A DNA stretch of 64,000 bases from Buxus sempervirens (Eukaryota; Streptophyta; Magnoliopsida; Buxales; Buxaceae): the NCBI GenBank assembly GCA_947561395.2, contig OX387190.1, positions 31,862,858 to 31,926,857 on the forward strand, in the 5' to 3' direction. Position 1 is the stretch's first letter. Every line of letters begins with the position of its first letter. Both the position numbers and the translations under genes were made by a program. A model generated the notes under the pieces. It was given only the letters and a program-made list of their open reading frames with translations, did not search any database and was not told the DNA's origin. Shown here one piece after another: positions 1 through 26,502 of the stretch.

Positions 1-1149
1 CTTCTAGCATTAAATATGTTGAATTCCACCTATGTTCAACATCTAGGGTAATTTTTTATATTGTTTTTCTAAAGTTTCACAATAATATTTAAATTCTCTA
101 GCGGTTGTGCTAGATTGTTTTATAAATCTTACTGCATCTCTAATATTTATTAAATGATGTTGAACAATTTTTAATCCATCTTGCACAACTAAATTAAGGA
201 TATGACAAGCACACCTAACATGAAATAAACTTCCATCTATATTTAAGTTTAATTGTTGTCTTAATATTCCTACTGCAACATTATTAGCACTTGCATTATC
301 AAGTGCTAGAGCCATTATTTTATTGTGTATTTTATAACTTCTTAGATTTCTACTTATAGCATTTGATATATTCATTCCAGTATGGCTAGCATCTAGTGGT
401 TCAAAAGTTATTATTCTTTTTTCTATATTCCAATTTTCATCAATATAATGTGCAGTTATAGCTAAATAGCTTATTTGTTGTCTACTTGTCCAAACATCTG
501 AGGTTAAAGCTATCTTAAAAGTACTGTTTGACAAAGTTTCTATTAATGCAGTTTTCATTTTTCCATATAATTTTATTGCATCTTTTCTTAAAGTGTAACG
601 TGAAAAAGGTTTAAATTGTGGTGCTAAATATTTAGTTATTAAACGGTTAAATCTTTTAGAATCTATTAATCTAAAGGGTAATTCTTCTTGAATTACCCAC
701 TTTACTATTTCAAGCCTAGTTTCTTCTTGATTAAAAATAAAATTACTCATAGCAACACTACTAGTAGAAATTTGGGTTTGCCTAGGGTCAATTTGGTCAT
801 GTTTTGGAAGGCATTTTTGCAAATGCTAGTTCAAGTGGCCTGTACCACCTTTGACTTTACAACTAAAATGTTTTTTGCAATGGTTACACACTACCTTCTC
901 TTCACTCCCTACACTTTCAATGGTAAAATTGAGCCAAACACCGGAGGTTCTACTCCTCTTGGTGTTCCTAGGTGGTAGGGAAGACGATCCCATATCCTGT
1001 GAAGGTAATTCTGTTTCAAGACCTTGGATGGGAGGGTCATTATATTGGGGTTGGGTTATATCATCAGAAAATACTGGGTCAGAAAGGGGTCTAAGATATT
1101 CCCTTTCTTCAGTGTCAAAAAACATAGGATACCTAGGGTCCATTATCAA
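1..1149 (-). pseudogene. hAT transposase with BED zinc finger (damaged, partial)
   Basis: Reading from 1149 leftward, the protein starts MDPRYPMFF two codons in, has an acidic and proline-rich lead, then a BED-type finger (CNHCKKHF with a following H in GTGHLN). The hAT core follows, with the RNase H-like segment TSDVWTSRQQISYLAITAHY and the CHILNLVVQDGL motif. One in-frame TAG at 826-828 separates the zinc finger from the core, where relatives read through (HLN then HLQKCLPKHD). A second lesion near 43-47 looks like loss of one C: past it the sequence reads in another frame as a normal hAT continuation (DVEHRWNSTYLML). Two simple lesions in about 370 codons mean the copy decayed recently. 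The C-terminal dimerisation domain lies outside the window. Confidence 0.85.
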
Positions 1150-1499
1150 ATTTTTTGAAAAAAAATTCTTAATAAATAATATTATAATAACTATTTGGTG
1201 ATATTAATTTATAAGAAAGGTAGAAGGAGAGACTTACTTATAATAATAATATTTATACTAATTTTAAAATCAGAAAATTAAATAGAAGAATACCTCTTTA
1301 GAATGAATCTTGAACTTTGCAATTGAAGCCTTCAACCTCCAGAATCCAATTTCCCACTTTTGATGCTTGAACAATTAGAAGAGATCGAGTATCACCAATT
1401 TCCAATTACAACAATTAGAGCAAAGAACTATTTGATAATCAATTAGAAGAGAGTAGGAGATTGTAGAAGTGGTGTGGTTTGGAGTGGGAAAGGGAGTGG

Positions 1500-1509
1500 C
1501 TATTTATAG
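1500..1509 (-). promoter_or_regulatory. TATA-like box for the hAT transposase
   Basis: The minus strand reads CTATAAATAG, about 350 bases upstream of the first transposase ATG. It sits inside the element, so the transposon probably carries its own promoter. Position and sequence are seen; promoter function is inferred. Confidence 0.5.
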
Positions 1510-1705
1510 AAAATTAAAAGTGGCTTTTTACTACCTCTACCCTTCAATATGACTGTTATTTTGCAGTTGGAAGGGTAGAAAAGGTCTTTAATTTTATCAT
1601 CAATTACAACTATAGCCCCCCAATATAGTTGTTATATGGCTGTTGGGGGGGGGGGGGGTAAAATGGGCATAAAATTGGCTAAAAGCCACTTGTATGGAGG
1701 GAAAA

Positions 1706-1851
1706 GAGAGCTAGCCAACGGCTAGCTCTCTGGCAGGCCGGCCCGCGTGCCCAACGGCAGGCACCCGTGCCTGCCGTTGGGGCGTGCCAAGCGGGCCGGC
1801 CCGCGTGCCCAACGGCAAGCACGCGTGCCTGCCGTTGGGGCGTGCCAAGCG
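1706..1851. repeat. GC-rich subterminal repeats and hairpins of the hAT element
   Basis: A perfect inverted repeat at 1706-1730 has an 11-bp stem (GAGAGCTAGCC) and 3-base loop. Next come two tandem units of about 58 bp (from 1736 and 1794). Each contains a second inverted repeat, CCCAACGGCAGGCAC followed by its complement in unit 1. Subterminal arrays of this kind are where hAT transposases usually bind. The block is far more GC-rich than its surroundings. Confidence 0.75.
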
Positions 1852-2029
1852 GGCCGACCCGCTGTAACCCGCGCGCGCGTGCCCCCAGGGCCCTAGGCCC
1901 GGCACGGCCCGTTGCTCATGCCTAGGGACAGGTTTGGGTTTAGCCCAACCCGCCACAAACCCCACCTTCATATATTAAAATATCAACAATAATATGTTTT
2001 ATTGGAGCATAATAAAGGGAATGTATCCA

Positions 2030-2244
2030 TTATTGAAGAAGGATAAACTTTATCTTCTGTTATTTAGTTTTGCTGAGTTGTGCATTCTGTTATCTGTATT
2101 TCTGTTTGCTGAGTTGTATAGAGGGACAATTATGTATTTTTCCCTTTTATAGGTTGTTAGAAGATTCTTTTGTAATTGTATATAAACGAGTGTACAAGGG
2201 AAAATATATCAGAGAACATTTTCTCCTTCATTTCTTCTCTGACA
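2030..2244 (+). mobile_element. Possible solo LTR (copia-like) nested in the hAT element
   Basis: The stretch resembles a short plant Ty1-copia LTR: it starts near TATTGAAGAAGG, has a TATA-like TATATAAACGAG, a T-rich tail with TTTTCTCC, and ends near TCTCTGACA. It interrupts the otherwise GC-rich hAT subterminal region. No coding part or second LTR is visible, so it would be a solo LTR fossil. The boundaries are approximate and the assignment is tentative. Confidence 0.3.
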
Positions 2245-2550
2245 TACCTCTGTTTGTCATCTTGTTACATGTTTTAAATATTATTTTCATACATATTTTA
2301 TATTCAATTTTAAACTCGTTTTTTTTTTTTTTTTTGACACTTTATACTCCAACCGGGGTTAGCGTCAACCAGCCCATAACCAACGCGATGGGGGCGGGTT
2401 TGGGTTCAGCAAGACCTCTCATGCTCCCCTGTTGACATCCCTAACACTCGCTTGTTTAGAGCATGGTTATATTGACCCACTACGTACCCTCGCTACCAGC
2501 TACAAGAAATTATATGCATCAATAAATAAAACTAGTTTAATGTTTATACA

Positions 2551-3721
2551 AGGAGCCTGGAACACATTCATTGTTGAAGAAGACTTTGAATTCATATCAA
2601 AGAATGGGTTGAACGCTGTGAGAATTCCCGTTGGGTGGTGGACGGCCCGCGATCCAACACCGCCAAAGCCCTACGTTGGTGGATCCTTGAAGGCTTTAGA
2701 CAACGCTTTCACATGGGCACAGTAAGATACCTAGCTGTTCAGTTACTAGTAGGATTGATGAGGTGAAACCTCTTTCCCTTCTTCCACCTTCAAACCTCAA
2801 CAAATGGCAAATTTTTGCAGGAAATATGGAGTAAAGGTCATAATAGATCTGCACGCAGCGCCTGGTTCACAGAACAGGGATGATCACAGCTCGTCCAGAG
2901 ATGGATATCAGGAATGGGGAGAAGACACCATTAAAGAGACTGTTGCTGTTATAGACTTCCTAACAGCAAGGTACTACGTACGATTAATTTGACCTCTCGC
3001 ATGAGTTGGGTGATCAGTGGTTAATATATTAATTCTTGGGCTCAACCCCATAAAAGTTTCATATTATTAATTAAATCAAAGCCACACATGACATGCAGAT
3101 ATGCCAAGAACCCCAGTCTCGTTGCAGTGGAGCTGATGAACGAACCTCGCTCTCCTGGTGTATCTCTAGACAGCCTGAGCAAGTACTACAGAGCCGGTTA
3201 TGATGCAGTGAAGAAGCACGCGCCGGCGGCTTATGTGGTCATGTCTAACCGGCTAGGAGAAGTGGATCCGAGGGAGTTGTTCACACTAGCCAGCGGCCTG
3301 AAGGAAACGGTGATCGACGTCCATTATTACAACCTCTTCTCGGATGTTTTCCAAGACATGTCTGTTCAACAGAACATCGACTTCGTCTGTACAACTCGAT
3401 CATCACAGTTGACACATCTCACCGCACCAAACATGAATGGTCCCCTAATCTTTGTTGGTAATTAATTAGGCATGAATGTGATCGATATCCATGGCTCAGA
3501 TCATATATAATATATGATGTAATCTGTTTTTGCATGCAGGGGAATGGACAGCTGAATGGCAGGTGAAGGAAGCAAGCAAGGAGGACTACCAGAGATTTGC
3601 TGAAGCAGAGTTAGAGGTGTTCGGGCGAGCGACGTTTGGATGGGCTTATTCGACTCTGAAGAACGTGAACAATCACTGGAGTCTACAGTGGATGATCAAC
3701 AATGGTTATATAAAGCTGTAG
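2551..3721 (+). CDS. GH5 glucan 1,3-beta-glucosidase-like gene, C-terminal exons (copy 1)
   Basis: Four exons encode the catalytic part of a plant GH5 enzyme of the exo-1,3-beta-glucosidase type (rice GH5BG-like, with a fascin-like N-terminus): about 2551-2721, 2821-2970, 3099-3457 and 3540-3721. All have GT-AG borders and compatible phases. Motifs seen: LNAVRIPVGWW, VKVIIDLHAAPGSQN, the acid/base Glu in LMNEPRSPGV, VIDVHYYNLF, and the nucleophile Glu in GEWTAEW. The product likely hydrolyses beta-glucans in the apoplast. These exons show no stops. The first exons (signal peptide and fascin-like domain) are missing because the hAT element ends at 2443; they may lie left of it, or be lost. The start of the first visible exon does not give the phase seen in copy 2, so this copy could be broken too. 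Confidence 0.8.
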
Positions 3722-4187
3722 ATTAAATGGATGATACATAGTAGCTATCTATTAATAATCCTTTTAGACAGTCTAATTAAGCTCAATATATATATATCCT
3801 GGAGTTGTATCTCTGTTCCAATACTCTCTCAAGCTATATTAATTAATTATAAACTTGTGACTCAGCTTACAATTTATCTCGTCTGTGTTCTGTTTTGGCT
3901 CTGCCTAGGGTTGAGAATTGGTCCAGCTCAGGTTCTGGTTAGATCAACTAAAATTCTAGGGCTCTTTCCAAAGAGATGAAAAAACCTTAAGGAGAGGAAG
4001 AAAAGACTCGAAAAAACTGCATCCTGATTAGTCTATAAAAATTAAAAAAATTCAATCACTGGTTCTTCTCAAATTTGTTAATTTTTATAGATTGATATCG
4101 TCTTCTTCGACGGCAAGCAATTACAAGAAAAAAGTATAAAATAAATCTTTTATTTTTCAATGCGGAAGGGATAATATCAACTATCAA

Positions 4188-4201
4188 GCGCTTGAAGATG
4201 A
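4188..4201 (+). repeat. Target site duplication, left copy, of the L1 insertion
   Basis: GCGCTTGAAGATGA here is repeated exactly at 5551-5564, right after the poly(A) tail of the LINE. A 14-bp duplication fits target-primed reverse transcription. Confidence 0.9.
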
Positions 4202-5516
4202 TCTGATTGGAGATCCTGGTTGGAGAACTCAGGTTCTCATGGACACTGATGTCTATCTTTTGGAGCACAGAAATCTGATGGTGGATAATCTGATTGACCA
4301 ACATACTACGGAGTGGAGACTAAACAAACTAAAGGAGATTTGGACAGAGGAGGTGGCGGACCAAATAGCAAAGATCCCGATCAGTAAGTATGCGGTTGAA
4401 GACCAACTCAGGTGGAGCGGAACGGCCATTGGTAAGTTCTCGGTATCCTCCACTTACAGACTGCTTTGTGAGCATGATGATATCACTGAGCAAAATTTGA
4501 AGTGGCTCAAGGTATGTAAGCTACCCTGCCCCCAAAAAATAAGGTTTTTTCTTTGGAAACTCATACATGAGGGAAACCACACCAATGATATTTTTCACTA
4601 TAGATTGGGTGTCCCTGCTGAGCTATGTGTGCTGTGCCAAAAATCCCAGGACTCAAATCATCACCTTTTTCTCGAATGTGATTTCTCCAGAGCCCTCTGG
4701 TTCGGTTCGATGGGAGGCCGCCTTCCTTCTGCCTCCCAAAACATATCTTGCAAGGATTGGACGTTTGACCATTTGCTACAACTGGGTGCCACTGATGGTC
4801 TCTTGACTACTGCTGCTTGGGCAAACCACTGTTGGGTCGTCTGGTTGGCGAGAAATCAGCTAATTTTTGATAACATACAACCATCCTTAACTCGTGCTCG
4901 GGTGTTTTTTCAGGCTCTTCAAGGCGACTCTGCATTCCTTCATGAACCTAGTGGTGGGTCTGGAAGAAGTACAAGAAAGGAGATCTTCATTAAATGGTGG
5001 ATGCCTGGAAATGGTTGGTTTAAAATCAATGTGGACGGCGCGGCTAGAGGTAACCCAGGAAGAGCTGCAATTGGAATTGTCCTCAGGAACGATCAGGGAA
5101 GAGTGAAGGGAGCGATCTCAAGCCGGATTGCAAACGTTACTGCTATTGTGGCGGAAGCTACTGCTGCCACAGAAGGACTCAAGTTGGGTCTTGCTTTGGG
5201 CGTCACAAAAGTCATCCTTGAATGCGACTCTCAGGTGCTTGCAAATTGTCTCCGGAGCTCGGGTCCCCTTCCATGGAGCATCTGCACCATTGTTGAAGAA
5301 GCAAGACATCTTATGGGGTTATTTTTGGATTGTCAAATCTCTAAAGTATTCAGGGAAGCAAATATGGCTGCGGACGTGCTTGCAAATTTTGCGATTGATG
5401 AGTTCTCCTGTTACTGGCTGAAGAATTTTCCATCTTGCCTTAACTGTGTAGTTAGGGACAATATTATGGGGCGTTCTACCCCTCGTTTGGTCCCTCTTTG
5501 TACTGATTATCCTTAA
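4202..5516 (+). CDS. L1 ORF2 C-terminal fragment: zf-RVT and RNase H
   Basis: The frame is open from the insertion point to the stop at 5514-5516; the first ATG is at 4239, giving 425 aa. The first half has the zinc-binding region after reverse transcriptase (LPCPQKIRFFLWKLIHEG, then CVLCQKSQDSNHHLFLEC) and the W-rich linker WVVWLARNQLIF. The second half is RNase H: D in FKINVDGAARGNPG, E in AEATAATEGLKLG, D in VILECDSQVLANC and D in FREANMAADVLANF, so all four acidic active-site positions are present. The reverse transcriptase and endonuclease domains are absent through 5' truncation, so this is a dead-on-arrival copy with no host function expected. Confidence 0.9.
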
Positions 5517-5550
5517 TTTATTTATCTCGTTTTCCAAACAAAAAAAAAAA
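4202..5550 (+). mobile_element. 5'-truncated L1-type LINE, young insertion
   Basis: The insert lies between two identical 14-bp target duplications (GCGCTTGAAGATGA at 4188-4201 and 5551-5564) and ends in a run of As (5539-5550). It keeps only the 3' end of ORF2: the zinc-binding post-RT region and the RNase H domain typical of plant L1 elements. Perfect duplications and an uninterrupted reading frame argue for a recent insertion. It lies between the two GH5 copies and disrupts no visible exon. Confidence 0.92.
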
Positions 5551-5564
5551 GCGCTTGAAGATGA
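5551..5564 (+). repeat. Target site duplication, right copy, of the L1 insertion
   Basis: GCGCTTGAAGATGA follows the A run immediately and matches 4188-4201 exactly. Confidence 0.9.
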
Positions 5565-5679
5565 GAAAAAATAAGAAGAAGCACCAATGAACCCTTAAGC
5601 CCATAATAAATAAGAAAAAATGCATACATCAATTAAATAAATTTACCCAAAAAATTACTTTATTTTTAATAATTATTTT

Positions 5680-6018
5680 ACATTTATAGCAGCATTTCAT
5701 AGTAAAGTGCCGTAATACAATATTTTATAAATTATTGTATAGCAGCATTTGATAGATAAGCGTCGTAACAAATTGTTTTATAGGGGTATTCAGTTAAAGA
5801 ATGCCGTAATAAATTATTTTATAACAGTATTCACTAGGAAAATGCCGTAATAAATCGTTTTATAGTGCCATTTTCTAGGAAATGCGGTAATAAATAGTTT
5901 TATAATGGCATTTTTAGAAAAATACCGTAATAAATTGTTTTATAACGGCATCTACATATGAAATGTCGTATTTAGGCACTTATAAGGGCACTTTTTTATA
6001 AGTGCCCTTATATTAGTG
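5680..6018. repeat. Degenerate tandem array, CACTA-like subterminal region
   Basis: At least seven units built on GCCGTAATAAATTGTTTTATA start near 5709, 5760, 5803, 5844, 5884, 5924 and 5964, a period of about 40-50 bp. The array runs into a perfect hairpin (ATAAGGGCACTT, six bases, and its complement) and ends near TTAGTG at 6018, whose reverse complement starts CACTA. This resembles the subterminal repeats and terminus of a non-autonomous CACTA element. No transposase and no opposite end were found. Confidence 0.45.
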
Positions 6019-6132
6019 TCGTCATATCACTTTTTTATAAGTGCCCTTAAGGTTTGCCAAGAAAGAGGAACGATGAAGATGAGAGGAGATGCTTTGCAAA
6101 GAAGATAAAAAAAACATAAGGTAGAAAATAAA

Positions 6133-6230
6133 AGGGAAAATTATGAAAATCACCCACTTGTCTCAAGTATTTATAAAAACATGCTTTGAAAAAGTCAAAT
6201 GTTAAAAAACATGCAATTTTTCCCGTCTAG
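6133..6230. repeat. MITE-like end, related to the element at 33413
   Basis: The segment starts GGAAAATTATGAAAATCACC and continues with TATTTATAAAAACATGC. This resembles both ends of the foldback at 33413-33873 (GGAAAATTATGAAAAAGGCTC at its left end). I could not find a matching opposite end, so this is a fragment or a diverged copy. Confidence 0.35.
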
Positions 6231-6778
6231 TTGTGTTTCAGTCCGAAATCGAAGATATAACTTGTATCTTACGACGACAAACATACTGGGCACTTTTCAA
6301 AATTCAAAAATTGCCTTTCGAACTAATGTACCAACGTTGAACCAGACTTTCATCATGCATCCATGAATTTCAATCAATCGGAGACCTTTCGATTAATCGC
6401 AAAACAACGATTTAAGGTTTCGGTTAATCAAATTTTCAAATCATCAAAGGATACATATTAGATATTCAAGGATATCAGACAAATTATCAATGGATACAAG
6501 TATGATCTTCGTAGGATACATACAACACAAACATAAGATATTAGGTTTACCATCATGGAAACAAGCATGATCATTGTAGAATACAAGTTAAATCTTTGAA
6601 AAATACAAGTATAATAATCCAAGGACACACGTTAGTTCATCGTGAATTTTCAATAATCATCGCGACTTTTCGATTAATCAAAACTATCATTCGATTAAAC
6701 TCCTCGTTCAAGTCTTGTAAACTTCTATATTAATCACCCCTCTTTTCTCTGTATTAACCAGATGACAGAGAGAAAATA

Positions 6779-17102: not shown

Positions 17103-19229
17103 ATGGAAGCTACGGCTTTCTCGAATTCCATTTTATCTCCGCTCCCTTCGCATTCATCTCTACCGCAAAACAATCTCAATCACTTCTTCTTACCCTACTC
17201 CCCTGCTTTACCTCAACGAAGAATCTCGTTTTCTCTAATCCACGTTCCTAACCCTAAACGTCGTAACCCTTCTTTCGAATCGAACAATCAAAGAACGCTC
17301 GTCACGCGCTGTTCCGTAAATTCGGAAGAGCATAAAGATGAACAGATTCCGATCGAGAAAAGTACGTTTCGTTTCGTGATCCCTTTTTGAAGTGTTAAGA
17401 TTTTCTTCTTTCTGGTTTCGATGAACCGGGTTTCTTTTCCCCTTTTTTTTTATGCCGTGGGTTGCTCGTTGCAGAGTATCCAGCATTTCCAACTGTAATG
17501 GATATTAACCAGATTCGACAGATTTTGCCCCACAGGTGAGACCTTTATTTTTGATAAGACACGCGCTGTGCTTGTATTTAGTGCATTTTACAATGCATAA
17601 TTTTGTTGTTGAAATATGAAGTTTAAATCCAAGTTTGCGTCTTTTATGTTTTTACTTAGAGCATTTTTTACTATTCTAATTTTAATCATACTACATTTGG
17701 CCCTGGTTTAGGTTCCCATTTCTTCTCGTGGATAGAGTGATCGAATACAATCCTGGAGTTTCAGCTGTTGCTATAAAGAACGTAACCATAAATGATAACT
17801 TTTTCCCCGGCCATTTTCCCGAGAGGCCGATTATGCCTGGCGTTCTTATGATTGAGGTATTGCTTATTGCCTCAGTTTCTCTCTCACGCACTCTCTCTCT
17901 CTCTATTTGGAAGTAACAAGGAGCAATACTGTTTGTATGTAAGGTTCTGGCATATCTTTGAATAATCCCTCTTCATTTGACTAGGCCTGTTTAAATTCAA
18001 TTGGCGATTTCTGAACTGTTGTGATAATATCGTAATGGGTTTTAGATTTTCTCAATCGTATGATTCATATGGGACTTTGTTCTTGTTCATTTTAGGGATT
18101 TAGAGTAATTTACTAATGGAATGCGTCAATGGCCTTTTCTTTAATATCTTACCTTAAAATACCTTTTTGACCAATCCCATTTCCTATCTCTGTCATATTT
18201 GGAGTTATGTTTTGTAATTGACAACTGAATTTTGTGTTTGTTCATGTCAGCTAATTTTTATTTCGAATTTTCTTGTAAAGTTGAAGTCGAGAGTGTGTAA
18301 TTTTATGGTTCTTAATATATATTCTCAGGAAACTATAAATTTTAAACCATGATATTAACTATCGACCCTGTACAAGCTGATGGCTTGTTACACTAAGACC
18401 ATGAGCTCACACAGCATTTGCGATATTTTCACCACGGACAAGATGGTGAGTTTTGAGTCTGATCAAGTATCCATGGTAATGAGTGCTATGAAATTTAGAT
18501 TTTTATTTGTGCTTTTTCCTTTTTCTGTGGCAATGTATAACCTTGAACATCTGAGGAAATGGTTTTGAAAATTAATATATGATGTTATTTCCGGCAGCAT
18601 ATAGCTTGTTTCCCAATAATAGTGATTCTTAGCCTGTATATTTTGTTTTTGTTATATGTCAAGATATTGGTGTGATTCTCTATTTTTGAAAATTTTCTTC
18701 CTGGATGGGTTGGCAGGGAGTATATATTTTTTTGTTTTTTCTGTGAAAGGGTTGTCAAGAAATGGTCCTAGATTTTTGTGGATATTATGAAGAACAATTT
18801 CCAAGTTGTGGTCTTGACATTGAAGCAGATGGTACCTCCTCCATGTCAATCTAATGTCCAAAGCAATACTATGTATATCAGGACAAGGGTGGCCATCTCC
18901 CTTGTCCAAGGTTGAGATATTGATCCATTCATAGGGTTCTTGTCCTCATCCTCTGCAATGATATAAATCAGATACGGAGTATCACACTCTTCATTACCCT
19001 ATAGCCTTTTCTCTGCTTGCTTTCTGTTGCAATTTTTTGTTGTAATGCTAGAAGACAACTTTTTGTAACTTGTTTCAGACTGGCTGATTTTGTGATTTGT
19101 GTGGGGCAATGCAAACACATGTTGTTTTTCCTTGCATGCTAGGGAAGATTTTTTTATGAGAGGACATTGAGAGGTAAGCCTTGAGCCATTGGAAAATCTG
19201 TCCATTATTCATCCATCACTTTGCAGGTA

Positions 19230-19262
<33 letters not shown>

Positions 19263-20694
19263 CATTACCCAGTAGCCTTTTCTCTGCTTGCCTCTTTTGC
19301 ACTTTTGTCTTGTAATGCTAGATTGTGATTTGTGATTTCATGCTGATCAATGCAAAGGCATGTTAGTTTTCCTTGCATGCTAGGGAAGAAGTTGCTTTTG
19401 AGAGCATATAGAGAGGTAAACCTTGAAGCATTGGAAATTCTGTCCCTTTCTCATCCAACACTGTTCTGTTAACTCTGTGTATGTTTGTGCATGCACACCT
19501 GTGATAGTACGTGTTTTTGATTTAATGTAGATCAATGCAAACGAGTCCTTCGCTTTCACAAAACATAAGTTTTGTAAAGAGGAGCTCATGTTAGTTTTAG
19601 TTACTATATTATGTATATGCTAGAATAGATGATAAAAGATTGTACCTCAAGACATTCTAAAATTGATATAAGAGCAGAAATTTGGGCCCCAAGAGAGGGG
19701 CTTCAAATGGCACGGGAAGCTGGAATTCATAGTTTGGAAGGGGAAATGGATTCAAAAGCAACAGTAATAGAAGTAAACAGAGATTATATCAAAGATCAGT
19801 ATCCCAATTTCAATATTTATGAGTGATATCAAGAACATACTGAATGAGGATTGGTGTGTAAATTTTGAACATGTATTTAGAGAAGCAAATATGTGTGCTG
19901 ACATTATAGTTAAGTTAGGTTACAACCTTAGTGCTGTAACGATATTACATGAACCACTAGATGATATCAGACAAATCATTGTTGACCAAAAATTTGAATC
20001 TTAATCATTTATGATCAAACATGATTTCACCCAATTATGTGGGTTTTTATTTCATGGGGTACGGATCCATCCAGGGCGTCTAGGGTACAGAACAATCCCC
20101 TTAATTACATCTCTAGAAAATTAGAGAAAACCCTTTGATTCTAACTTTACTTCATAAGTCTTGATTACTTGTATGGTTGGGAATCATTTGGTTTGTTTTA
20201 ATTGCGATTGAACCAGGTTTAATTTTTTTGGGTTGCCTACGTACCCAATTATTTGGGATCAAGTCATAACATAGTTCAAAAGTAATTTAAGTTTGAATTT
20301 AAGGTATTAGACTATAAAAGATCCTACCTTATATTTAATTTGGTTTATTTTAATTAATTGGATCATTAAGATCCGGTTCAATTAGGTTTAATTTGAATGG
20401 TTTAATGTTTAAGGCATTGGACCGTAAAAGATCATACCTTTGATTAAACCATTTGAGTTTAATTTGAATTAAATCACAAAAAGGAAACAGTTTGATTTGA
20501 AAAGATCTGATTTGATTTAATTTGAGTGGTTCAATTTCAAAGGCATTGTTTGCACCTAAAAAAAGTATTTATCTTTGATGGCGTGGCACTGTAGGCCATG
20601 TCCCAAGAGAACCCCAAAACAACAACAAAAAAAAGAGGTTTTAAATTAAAAAAATTGCATGGTCGTGCACATGCATGACCCTTGCCCGCCCCCC

Positions 20695-20727
<33 letters not shown>

Positions 20728-23700
20728 CAAAAAAAAAAAAAGAAAGAAAACAAAGAGGATCCTATCAGATAGAACACATCCTGTTAAGGATAACTAACAA
20801 AAGAAAATAAAATAAAATAAAAGGATAATCAAAAGAGGATTGCATGGGTCATACGCTTTATCTTGGAGTCGTAATTCTTCAAGAGAGGAAGGGGGACCAC
20901 ATGCCACGTCCCTCCTTTTTATTTAAAAGAAAAAGAGGGCAGAGAGAGGGAGCCAACGGCTCTCTCCCGATTCTTTGCCAATCATGGAGTGTGGGAAGTT
21001 ACAACTTCCCACACATGTTGCAACAAACCTACTTTTATAAAGAGGCTAAGTGATAAAGAGGAGGTTGGTTGGAAAAATGGTTGAAGAGGATACGGAGAGT
21101 TTAGAGATTGAAGAAAACAAAAGATAGCTTTGAAGGCTTGAACACTGCATCACAGAGAACAAAAGGTAAGAAATTACGTTTATCTTTTCTCTTATTTCCT
21201 TCAATATTCGCCCTTATCTCGAATTTTTCTTCGATTGATTCCAGAGAGTCAGGGACTCTCATTAGGATCACCTGGATTCTGTGTTTTAATTGGATTACAA
21301 TTAAAGATGAAGGGAATTTCAATCTTTTCCTTCAATTAAACAAATCTGAAGGGCCAGGGTTCTTTTCAAGACCACCTGGATTTCACAAAGATGAACTCCC
21401 AAAAAAAAGGAGAGTTGGGGACTCATGTTTGGATCACCCGGACTCCTATCAGAAACTACCCTAAAAAAAAGGAGAAGATGGTAGAATAATTTGTAAGCTC
21501 TCTAAAAGGAATTAAGATTGTTAAAACAAGTTTTTGGGTTGAAATCTGAATTTACAAGGCCAAAAATCGGCTAAAAATACTCAAAATTCGGCCAAAAACG
21601 AGTCTGCAAACATCCCGTGGTTGACATGTGGTAAAAATTGCAAATTCGAAGGCAAAATAGGGTTTTAATGCGTTGGGCCCAGTGACTTGGGCCGTGCGCC
21701 AGGCCCAAGTGCACAAACGGTTGGTGCATGGTCCTAGGCGCTAACACAGGCCCATGCGCCCCGTCTTAAACTTGTGCACCCCGCGACTCATCATTCAACC
21801 CGCACGCGGTCCGCCCCATCGACTCCGGCCCTGTACCCACGAGTACACCCAAGCTCATCGGTTTTAACCCGCGCGCACAAGCCCGTGTTCAATACCGGTC
21901 CGCACCCATCTCATCCGACCCGAGCAACAAACCAGTCCCGCTTCGCCAACCCACCCGAACAAATAAAAAAAAAGGATAACGAGCCGAGCTGGCCCATGCG
22001 CATAATGCGTGACTCGCGCATGCCTATTTCGGCCCAAACCCAGAAGTTCCGACCTGTTTCACCTTGCCCGGATGACCTGACCCAAACCATTTGACCCGCA
22101 AATAAACACAGGCCCAAATCGTCTGAACCATAAATTAGCCCGGTTTAACCCGAAATTGCGTGTTTTTGCTAATTTTAAACCTAATTTGACCCCAAAAAAT
22201 CCAAGAAAATTCATAAAAATCCCAGAAGTCTTCTAAAACCTAAATTCATCAAAATTACATCAAAACTGTGATGTAAAAATAAAATTGCTTTTCGTTTCCT
22301 CATAAAAGCATTTAAAACCACCAAAAGTGCTTTGAATCAACCTAAGATGTTTCCAAAAGTGTTCAATATTAGACCAAAAGGTCTCAAATCAATTGAACCA
22401 TTAAATTGATCCAAACCATAAATATTCTAAATTGGACCAAAATGTCCTAAAACTAAATTGAACCAAATTAAACTAAAACTAGACTAAAATTGTTCTTAAA
22501 CTAAAATAAACCAAAAACCTCTTAAATTGAACCAAATTCCACGCGCGCGGCCCAAGTCACCGGTCCAACACACTGAAAACCCATTTTTGCCCTCCTGTAA
22601 GCTTGGGCCTAATTCACGTCTGGGCCCAGCACGTTTAGTCTAAGTGTGCTTGGGCCTGTGCGCGGCCTAGCTTACACTCAGGGCGCGCGTGGGCCCAGAT
22701 CGCAGCCCAGAACACATAAAAAGTCAATTTTGCCCCTGTTTTTTATTCAAATTTGCAATTTCTACCATTTGTCGACCCTGAGACATTTTCAAACTCGTTT
22801 TTGGCCATATTTCGCGTATTTTTGACCGATTTTTAACTCTGTAAACTTAGATTTCAATCCAGAAACTTGTTTTAATAATTTTAGTTCATTTTAGGGAGCT
22901 TACAAATTATTCCACTCTCTTCTCCTTTTGTTAATGGTAGTTTCACATAGGATTCCGGGTGACCCAAATATGAGTCCCCGACTCTCCTTTTTTTTGGAGT
23001 TTATCTTGTGAAGTCCAGGTGGTCCTAAAAAGAACCCCTGGCCCTTCGGATTTCTTTAATTGAAGGAAGCGATTGAAATTCCCTTCATCTCTAATTGTAA
23101 TCCAATTAAAACACAGAATCGAGGTGACCCTAATGAGAGTCCCTGACTCTCTGGAATCAATTGAAGAAAAATTTGAGATAAGGGAGAAGATGGAAAGAAA
23201 TAAGAGAAAAGATAAACGTAATTTCCTACCTTTTTGTTCTCTGTGATGCAGTGTTCAAGCCTTCAAAACTATCTCCTGTTTTCTTCAATCTCTAAACTCT
23301 CTGTATCATTTTCAACCCTTTTTCCAACTCCCTCCTCTTTATCACTTAGCCTATTTATAAAAGTAGGTTTGTTGCAACATGTGTGGGAAGTTACAACACT
23401 CCACAATTGGCAAAGAATCCGGAGAGAGCCATTGGCTCTCTCTCTCTCTGCCCTCTTTTTCTTTTAAATAAAAAGGAGGGGGGACGTGGCAAGTGGTCCC
23501 CCCTTCCTCTTTTGAAGAAGTACGACTCCAATATAAATCGTACAACTCATGCAATCCTCTTTTGATTATCCTTCTTTTTTTTGCCCTTTTGTTAGTTATC
23601 CTCAACAGGATTTGTCATATCTTATAGGACCCTCTTTGTTTTCCTTTTTTTTTTAATTAAAAAGGAGAGAGAGGGGGGGATGTGGCATGTGGTCCCCCCT

Positions 23701-26502
23701 CCTAATAAATGTGAGATGGGCTGTGGTCAGTTGATTGGTTTCTTTACCATATACATGTCTTTTTATACAACCTAATAGTGATGTGCACTTTATGTTGGTG
23801 TTAGATCAAGTTATTTGATGATCTCTTGTTGCAAGGATTGACATAAGCCTTAACCATTCAAGCTTTCCACCAAGTCTATTAATTAACTTGGATGACCATT
23901 GATTGACCATGCATGTGACATGGCCTCAAGGAAGGCACCTACTAGAGTTGTCATTCAGCTGAGCATTGCCCATCTTGGATTGGGCTTACAAATGGCCACT
24001 AAGGTTCATTCTCAATACAACATCATTGATGTTTCAACTTTTATATTGACTTAAATGATTTAACTTACATGATAGGTTTGAACTTTGAAATATAATATTT
24101 AGTTATGTACTGTCATTGGATGGGCATGTATTTTATAAAGGAAATTTAAGCAAACAATTATGATACTTATTAAGGTATTTTTTTATTTCTATGAATAATT
24201 TGAAATTATAAATAATATATTTATAATAAAAATGATTTTAGCTTTAATCAAGTGATGCTACCGAATCTTGGATCAATCTCATCAAGGAAGTGAGCTATAT
24301 TTCAAGCTTAGGCTCGCCTTTTGGGCCTAATTATTAACCTCAAGCTTGGGTCATACTATTATATTAGCATGAGCTTGAGCTGAAGTAGCTCATCTCATTA
24401 ACAGCCCTAGGCTCCAAGTGTGCGTACATCAAATGATATGTTGGCTTTGCATGGAAATAGCACATCTTCAAATGGACCGTGCCACAATTTCAGGAGGGTT
24501 TAGCCCATGGATCTAGCATTTGGAAGGGTAACTGGGGACTTTTGTACAGGTGGGCATGAATGGGCAGTATGATATTCGAAGAATGAAAGTTCTCAGGGTA
24601 CACATGTTGATGCACCCAGGTTGGCTTGGCGCCACAATACAGGAGGCATGTCAACATCAAAATATGGTTGGACTGTTGAGAGTCTTGAAAATATCATGGT
24701 TAGTGTATGTCTTTGGTTCTCAGCCATTTTCACGTTGCTTCACTTCAACTTACCCCTTCCTCTCTACTTTGGATTCAAATATTTAGAACAGTTCTTGTAT
24801 CCTTTACTGGGAACCTACCCATATTAATGAAATTATACACCTATAATTAGATCTTATTGAGTGGACATGGTTGAGTTCTGTGTCAACTTCCCAATCTCTG
24901 AACCATGGAAACTACCTCTCCTTCCTCGTGGCTTTTTTCATTAAATAATTGTAGGAACCCAAAGGCTTATAGCCATGTAATCCTACCATAAGCTAAGCAT
25001 AAACCTTTTGTTGCTTTGAATTTCTATTTATTGCTTTGTGGAGAAACTTCTGAAGCCTTGTTGTTGTAAAATATATGGGTATTTGAAGTATGATATGGTT
25101 TTGAAGAATGATAAAATTAAAATATCATGCATATGCTTCAATTATATATTTAAATGAATCAGTGTCCTCATAGAATGCCAATGAATTAATTCTATTGATT
25201 ACAATTACATGGCCTGGAAATTATTCTCCTGAGGCAATTTTGACCTTATAATCATTAACTCCTTTGATGCTTCTATCACAATTCTCCCTTAAGCTATATT
25301 AATTTTTTATCTTTGTGATTCAGAAATATGGGGGAATTATTTGTTCCTGCATTTGAATGTGAAATCACTTCCTTGTAAATCAAAGATTCAAATTATCCCT
25401 GTTCCTTTGTTTGAATTGCTAGAAGATCTTCTCTTCATGAAGAGATGTAATCACAATCAAAGATGCTGCAGCTTCTCATTCCATTTTTTTTTTCTCCTTT
25501 TAGAAGTCCTGTTTTTTATTGTTTAGGTGTGAAGTTTGGGCCGTAAGAAATGAATGAAAAATCAGTCTTTCTAGTTGCTAAGTATATTAGAGAAACTCGT
25601 ACCAAGAGGAGAGCTATTATACAATATAAAGTTTTATACATTTGGGCTGCACATACTCCATATGTTCAAGTTTTGAGTAGCATATTTTGGTTTCAATCCC
25701 CTGTTCACTGTGTAATTGTACCACGTTGTATCTTCAAGGCTTAGAGTGGAGGCCCTTGTGATGCTTTAAGATCCGTGGCACGTATCCACTCAGAGCATCT
25801 CCCAAAACTTGGATATCTTTTATAGTTTTGTTGTATTATACCCCATCTGTAGGTGACATGTATGCTTTGCAACTTTTTATGCCAATTGTTGCTGTGCTGG
25901 TAGATTATTTTAAATATCTCGCAACAAGATTCCTACACAATCCCGTCTGCCACTTAAACTTGTATTCTTGTAGCAAAGTGCATTTGAATGAATTTGTTTA
26001 CCAGAGAGCATGCCAGGATATAGGTATGCTAATTAGTTTATAATAGTATCACAGATTCTTTGCACCAAACCATCATTATGGTTCAGCTTCTTGGGGCAAA
26101 TCTCAAATGCTTACTAAGCTTCTTTACCACTTGGGTTCTACCTGAATTTTTTCAAAAACAAAAGCCAGTTTTTTCAAAAACTGGCTTTTGTTTGGAGCCT
26201 GGATCTGCATTATTGATAAGTAGTTGATGATGGGTCGTTGTTGGGTGCAGGCAATGGCCCAGGTTGGAGGCTTGGTTATGCTGCAACCAGAAGTGGGTGG
26301 CTCTCGTGAAAATTTCTTCTTTGCTGGAATAGATAAAGTGAGGTTTCGGAAACCTGTAATTGCAGGAGACACCTTAGTTATGAGAATGACACTCATAAAG
26401 CTGCAGAAACGCTTTGGAATAGCAAAGATGGATGGAAAGGCATTCGTTGGAGGTGAGTTGGTGTGCGAGGGTGAGTTTTTGATGGCCACGGGTAGCGAAT
26501 GA
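17103..26502 (+). CDS. Plastid 3-hydroxyacyl-ACP dehydratase FabZ, 4 exons
   Basis: FabZ removes water from 3-hydroxyacyl-ACP in plastid type II fatty acid synthesis. Exons are 17103-17361, 17475-17535, 17712-17856 and 26251-26502 (717 bases, 238 aa), all with GT-AG borders. The first 60-70 residues are rich in Ser, Pro and basic residues with few acids, as in a chloroplast transit peptide. The mature part starts near [20 protein letters not shown]. The hotdog active site is complete: His141 in [12 protein letters not shown] and Glu155 in IEAMAQVGG. Exon 3 ends exactly after the Glu155 codon, so the two catalytic residues lie on opposite sides of intron 3. That intron is 8394 bases, far longer than introns 1 and 2 (113 and 176 bases), and full of transposon material. 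The C-terminus ends FLMATGSE, normal for the family. Confidence 0.95.
18990..19470. repeat. Diverged direct duplication in FabZ intron 3
   Basis: A unit beginning TAGCCTTTTCTCTGCTTGC (near 19002) and ending with CATTGGAAAATCTGTCC recurs from about 19270, ending CATTGGAAATTCTGTCC. Both copies contain TTGCATGCTAGGGAAGA. The copies are about 200-230 bases, clearly diverged, and separated by an AT microsatellite (19236-19259). Confidence 0.65.
19629..20004 (+). mobile_element. LINE RNase H remnant in FabZ intron 3
   Basis: Two overlapping open stretches read as the end of an L1-type RNase H domain: [20 protein letters not shown] with the catalytic Glu context, [10 protein letters not shown], then [17 protein letters not shown], which resembles the FREAN-ADVLA block of the LINE at 4202. 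A shift near 19820 joins the two. It lacks the first RNase H motif, is in the sense orientation of FabZ and is an old fragment. Confidence 0.7.
20296..20447. repeat. Short direct repeat, GGTTTAA-rich
   Basis: AAGGTATTAGACTATAAAAG at about 20300 recurs as AAGGCATTGGACCGTAAAAG at about 20411, followed in both by ATC-TACCTT. The surroundings (20150-20560) are rich in GGTTTAATTTGA-like words. It looks like a local duplication, about 110 bases apart. Confidence 0.4.
20684..20727. repeat. Poly(C) and CT microsatellite
   Basis: A run of Cs passes into about ten CT units and then a poly(A) tract (20729-20740). It borders the left arm of the foldback element. Confidence 0.9.
20748..21670 (+). repeat. 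Left arm of the foldback element, with inward promoter-like block
   Basis: The arm contains a 12-bp palindrome-like pair (GTGTGGGAAGTT-ACAACTTCCCACAC, about 20990-21014), TTGCAACAAACC, then a TATA-like CTTTTATAAAGAGG at about 21032-21045. A leader-like stretch ends in GAGAACAAAAGGTAAG (donor-like) near 21155-21170. It could drive transcripts towards the centre of the element. Confidence 0.6.
22725..23640 (-). repeat. Right arm of the foldback element, with inward promoter-like block
   Basis: This is the mirror image of the left arm. Reading the minus strand, CTTTTATAAATAGGCTAAG (about 23345-23365) is the TATA-like counterpart and GAGAACAAAAAGGTAG the donor-like counterpart near 23230. Both arms therefore point promoter-like sequence at each other, as the terminal repeats of MuDR-type elements do. 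Confidence 0.6.
23700..26158. other. FabZ intron 3, right part
   Basis: AT-rich intron sequence between the foldback element and exon 4. Open frames here are short and show no recognisable domain. No further element was resolved. Confidence 0.5.
26159..26190. repeat. Perfect 15-bp stem hairpin just before FabZ exon 4
   Basis: CAAAAGCCAGTTTTT, two bases (TC), then the exact complement. It ends 60 bases before the exon 4 start at 26251, in the zone where branch point and polypyrimidine tract are expected. It could form in the pre-mRNA. Confidence 0.8.

Follow-up and report, generated by a model that had tools for sequence, protein, structure and literature searches.

The window analysed here, a stretch of 64,000 nucleotides from Buxus sempervirens (G000:C12:31862858-31926857, in an assembly of 676.5 Mb), carries a long inverted repeat within a FabZ gene, which raises the question of what the two arms are and how they came to face each other inside an intron. 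The preliminary description had placed the repeat in FabZ intron 3, and exon borders, reading frame and profile score bear this placement out. Indeed, the spliced exons form an uninterrupted frame of 238 aa, the four-exon gene being intact, and the protein (scored as a splice variant that differs from this frame by one residue) reached 176.5 bits against TIGR01750, for which the cut-off is 155.15. Searching the genome with the PF07977 profile returned three places, two of which are the FabZ exons of the window. Given the intact frame, the LTR composite described below would leave together with the spliced intron.

17103-17361, 17475-17535, 17712-17856 and 26251-26502: FabZ exons, with GT-AG borders at all of them
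17857-26250, plus strand: FabZ intron 3, which holds the LTR composite, between the end of exon 3 (17856) and the start of exon 4 (26251), with GT-AG borders and an intact spliced frame
20713-21662, plus strand: left arm of the inverted repeat, from the arm alignment
22734-23673, minus strand: right arm of the inverted repeat, from the arm alignment

Two inward-facing arms of about 0.9 kb around a non-coding spacer of about 1 kb had been proposed, and all of these features were recovered when the arms were aligned. Positions 20713-21662 and 23673-22734 share 85.9% identity over 958 aligned columns with 26 gaps (BLAST E value of 0) and lie 1,071 nt apart, and no stop-to-stop open reading frame of at least 150 aa was found within the inverted-repeat region. 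A local pairwise alignment gave 86.5% identity over 960 columns (89.2% at ungapped columns) and a comparison over 988 columns gave 86.7%; judged from these alignments, the similarity is far beyond chance. The repeat is therefore present, but its reported span was too short, since it forms part of a longer LTR composite at 19980-23710.

Identity of the arms

The left arm, searched together with part of the loop, matches at least 40 places in the genome (40 of 112 candidates were scored). Among the relatives, C3:8172127-8190964 is a complete LTR retrotransposon with two LTRs of 2,950 bp at 100% identity, both of which carry the arm and loop pieces of the window (main pieces at 71-78%).

L029 128-3077 and L030 516-3465: the two LTRs of the full-length relative, identical over 2,950 bp

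The LTR ends of this relative are TGTTGAAA and GGTCAACA (TG..CA ends), the target duplication CCGTG stands on both sides, and a PBS-like site behind the 5' LTR is directly followed by a long open frame of 2,695 aa. Five pieces of this polyprotein gave the order gag-PR-RT-RH-aRH-INT, in which aRH is a second RNase H-like domain (RVT_3) between RH and INT, and in which the protease scored 18 bits where Pfam's cut-off is 28.2, and rve, at 32.5 bits, narrowly missed its cut-off of 32.6. The solo LTR L018, a closer copy, measures about 3,055 bp, has the target duplication GTGAT and carries arm, leader and 3' end in normal LTR order. The TG..CA ends and the 5-bp target duplications are thus seen in the relatives (L029/L030 and L018), while the window copies show single LTR ends only.

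Because the second RNase H sits between RH and INT, an arrangement given as the mark of the Tat clade (Ogre or Retand) in the available text of PMC6317226, the relative is of Tat type (Ogre/Retand-like). On this sequence evidence, the window arms are 5' parts of the approximately 3-kb LTR of a Ty3/gypsy Tat-type retrotransposon, each arm being a separate LTR copy; the Ogre/Retand-like placement goes no finer than the Tat clade. As far as that text goes, the family resembles Ogre and Retand in its long LTRs, its 5-bp target duplication and the position of the second RNase H. The same source gives a plant mobile domain in 57% of Ogre elements, compared with weak PF10536 matches, both below cut-off, beside two relatives here; and it describes an intron-split frame in the Ogre of pea and Medicago, whereas the relative has one open frame that starts shortly after the LTR and extends through INT.

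The LTR identity also accounts for the TATA-like and donor-like motifs that had been described in each arm as mirror images, and that were found again at the following places.

21036-21041, plus strand: TATA-like box of the plus LTR, a motif in the window and in other LTR copies
21166-21170, plus strand: donor-like GTAAG of the plus LTR (AAG/GTAAG, break at 21166)
23354-23359, minus strand: TATA-like box of the minus LTR, a motif in the window and in other LTR copies
23225-23229, minus strand: donor-like GTAGG of the minus LTR (AAG/GTAGG, break at 23229)

Most LTR copies that cover these places have both the TATA-like box and, about 130 bp beyond it, the donor-like site. The latter reads AAGGTA in 23 of the 30 extracted arms, a count in which L014 and L015 are one locus counted twice and in which two of the seven arms lacking the motif (those of L009) end before the site; the full-length relative L029 has ATGTAAG there. 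By comparison among copies, the mirrored motifs are the LTR promoter region, present once per LTR copy, and no separate genes, so that mirrored promoter-like blocks can be simply two LTR promoters. The open frame of the full-length relative begins about 2 kb past the donor-like AAGGTA. A spliced leader starting from this site is possible in the LTR copies.

Map of the composite and relationship of its arms

Comparison with L018 and L029 divides the composite into three LTR parts.

19980-20546, minus strand: LTR 3' end, the presumed host LTR of a nested insertion, starting with TGTTGACC, the reverse complement of GGTCAACA
20547-22538, plus strand: the first approximately 1,980 bases of the plus LTR, from the exact LTR terminus TGTTTGCACC, matching L018 LTR 1-1979 in pieces
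22543-23710, minus strand: minus LTR part, of which 22687-23710 matches L018 LTR from about 139 to about 1214 in pieces, the inner edge 22543-22687 being less certain

The first of these parts is 92.6% identical to L018 LTR 2494-3055 (in minus orientation) and 88.2% identical to L029 LTR 2399-2950; in a genome search with it, 40 of 479 candidate places were scored. At the junction 20546/20547, which reads GGCAT/TGTTTGCACC, the first base of the plus LTR directly abuts the broken 3' end of the minus LTR, and at the point matching 20546 all 12 other LTR copies displayed run on (TGGACC, TGGGCC or similar) without an insert. In its sequence, this junction looks like an integrase-made insertion into an LTR. 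The other boundaries are damaged: the minus LTR part lacks its first approximately 138 LTR bases, and both LTRs are cut at the centre, around 22538-22543, the far end of the plus copy not being visible. Checked by eye, the composite has no outer target duplication, the left flank being ATCAT at 19975-19979 and the right edge being cut near 23710.

Whether the two arms stem from one event was addressed with an arm tree of 29 rows (30 extracted, with one L014/L015 duplicate dropped, and L036 and L038 absent). The left arm of the window is sister to a copy on C1 (support 98/97) and the right arm is placed close to the L011 pair at low support (80/74), while L010 (100/98), L011 (100/100), L013 (100/100) and, less strongly, L032 (93/90) have sister arms in the same tree. 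Forcing the window arms to be sisters cost 41 log units (p-AU 0.0002), in an AU test that was done after the tree had been seen, on a pair that was a hypothesis given beforehand. In a sliding comparison of the window arms, the non-sister result could not be traced to any one breakpoint. Since the arms are not sisters, the window repeat joins two different LTR copies, which favours nesting. For the U3 type of the window arms (20740-21010), 40 of 55 candidate places were scored, and strong matches are limited to five: both window arms, both L011 arms and L012, so that four of the five are in head-on pairs. Distances among these five close copies are nearly star-like, and the order of events therefore rests on one well-supported split.

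Head-on LTR pairs in the genome and the origin of the FabZ composite

Among the 40 scored places of the search with left arm and loop (112 candidates), we counted by eye five neighbouring pairs at most 6 kb apart, all of them head-on. This orientation is not a rule of the family: an array on C14 and L036 hold head-to-tail copies, and the direct LTRs of intact elements lie about 16 kb apart. The C14 array (G000:C14:4386000-4394500) has three LTR starts in the same orientation with 3.8-kb spacing. Eight head-on pairs were inspected (the window, L009, L010, L011, L013, L032, L036 and L038). In two of them, L013 and L032, both outer LTR starts are intact with no adjoining element sequence, and both have perfect 5-bp duplications; two randomly chosen points of these loci would share a 5-mer with a probability of 0.0015.

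The L032 dimer (G000:C4:15223500-15230200, 256-6501) has its LTR starts outside and is flanked by TAATT; at its centre, plus LTR 1-2957 is followed by 10-11 nt resembling a reversed LTR/PBS spacer and then by an intact minus LTR end. Its outer arm parts are 96.4% alike, compared with 81.9% for the last 700 LTR bases, of which the plus one is 96.5% identical to L029. Because these last 700 bases are only 81.9% alike, plain fold-back copying of one strand does not account for L032, which weakens a simple snap-back as the origin of the dimers flanked by target duplications. L013 (G000:C15:34246500-34252800, 901-5239), flanked by ATAAC, is likewise a head-on dimer, with arms 94% identical, a minus arm that has undergone an internal deletion, and a TTG microhomology at its centre; its arm starts are each other's best genome match (97%). 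By their sequences, L013 and L032 resemble head-on dimers of cDNA that were each inserted as one unit.

The remaining loci vary in structure. L036 (G000:C1:1074600-1081000, 386-5949) begins with a plus LTR part and an inverted LTR part (identity 96.6%); some 200 nt of other sequence separate these from an LTR that is shortened internally but keeps its start and end. ACATC stands on both outer sides, at the start of the left LTR and at the end of the next LTR, and a head-to-tail pair is also contained in this locus. In L010, L011 and L038, one arm of the head-on pair adjoins a PPT-like stretch (degenerate in L038), and in L010 and L011 the other arm begins at the first base of the LTR. L009 (G000:C15:21404500-21413500) is a palindrome with 4-kb arms that are 99.8% identical and include gag open reading frames, and may be a young inverted duplication or an assembly fold. 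Outward-facing LTR pairs were seen at G000:C22:18921510-18933777 and G000:C14:16717236-16725871. At each of them, the left LTR end leads into GGGTTT(T), the spacer up to the PBS, and from there into DNA of no relation, as though a cDNA end had been joined without processing. The C22 pair encloses inverted sequence with an open reading frame that weakly matches the plant mobile domain; no matching flanks were found on C22, and the right end is cut on C14.

For the window, it is probable that two partial LTRs of one Tat-type family came to lie head-on in FabZ intron 3 by nested insertion. The integrase would have inserted a plus-oriented copy into a resident minus-oriented LTR, leaving the clean junction at LTR base 1, and the head-on centre and the right edge would later have been deleted. 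Plant nested LTR retrotransposons and autoinsertions, as covered in the available text of PMC6911290, are alike in that a Ty3/gypsy copy lies inside an older copy of the same family; they differ in that the target here is an LTR and the head-on centre is lost. LTRs were not commonly targeted by nested elements in that survey, which counts against nesting here, as does the second target duplication, which is not visible since the inner LTR ends and right LTR start are missing. A chance insertion would also not predict that both arms share a rare U3 type with four of its five strong matches in head-on pairs, and the two other head-on pairs with outer target duplications indicate that dimers can arrive as units. 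Because a chance host LTR would seldom share the rare U3 type, we retain as a possible, rather unlikely origin that the composite is a decayed head-on dimer, whose two LTR ends would have become linked while reverse transcription was under way or afterwards, before insertion into a resident minus LTR. Such a link could stem from a strand switch, a snap-back or the joining of ends, and two co-packaged RNAs may have been involved. In addition to the shared U3 type, the perfect 5-bp duplications around L032 (TAATT) and L013 (ATAAC) and the similarly asymmetric centre of L036 speak for a dimer; against it, the window arms are not sisters, unlike those of L010, L011, L013 and the outer part of L032, and with the right LTR start and its duplication missing there is no direct sign of one.

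Other readings of the repeat fare far worse. Its long, inverted, inward-facing arms had suggested a MULE with a transposase between them, and a MULE or other DNA transposon with terminal inverted repeats of about 0.9 kb would have such arms, as foldback elements do; we nevertheless reject this reading as having next to no probability, since the arms lie within the direct LTRs of a gag-pol element. Moreover, the left outer sequence continues to an LTR terminus and then into another LTR, the right edge is cut, and no MULE transposase domain was found in the nine open reading frames and five polyprotein pieces scanned. A negligible probability likewise attaches to an assembly artefact or a fresh inverted duplication in situ. 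The 99.8% palindrome at L009 could be such a case, but the window arms are about 14% different and not sisters; this divergence rejects an artefact, and the arm tree and AU test reject a duplication in situ.

That FabZ pre-mRNA could fold into a long hairpin, as had been suggested, agrees with the predicted fold of 20713-23673 at -1584 kcal/mol, in which 835 of the left arm's 950 bases find partners in the right arm (values given with no shuffled control). The arms share 72 perfect 24-mers, with exact runs of up to 39 nt. As modelled, the hairpin RNA could be a Dicer-like substrate, and a small-RNA or splicing role of the composite is possible. With both arms in one pre-mRNA, this pairing would be compatible with an intronic hairpin that acts through small RNAs against its own family or tunes FabZ; we consider such a function very improbable, as the arms have diverged by about 13%, with numerous indels, and bear no sign of kept complementarity. 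Under nested insertion, hairpin RNA from the composite would be a passive by-product unless shown otherwise.

The window repeat is thus ordinary in kind: two remnants of LTRs from the same family face each other head-on within a long intron, and the gene around them is intact. This reading takes the place of the supposed MULE hairpin. The head-on LTR dimers with target duplications elsewhere in the genome are a more novel lead. No description of such dimers was found in the literature searched for head-on or palindromic LTR insertions, a search outside which most subscription papers lie; papers that do mention inverted LTRs report, in their available text, no head-on dimer with flanking target duplications. 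An inverted pair of LTRs, and an inverted LTR in an intron of the PAH gene, were described for locust Gypsy-25 (PMC8786324), and both resemble the window; in the available text of that paper, the inverted pair is the classic structure of that insect family, and neither head-on fusion nor target duplication is discussed. We raise, with considerable doubt, the idea that head-on LTR dimers of the Tat-type family form at the cDNA stage, the two LTRs being joined close to the LTR/PBS boundary or within the LTR. Integrase would insert these dimers via the two LTR-start ends with 5-bp duplications, and the FabZ composite would be an aged product of this process that has since been damaged. If this is true, mistakes in reverse transcription or in the joining of cDNA directly produce inverted-repeat loci able to seed small RNAs, and head-on dimers with target duplications would lead straight from retrotransposition to silencing loci of the inverted-repeat type.
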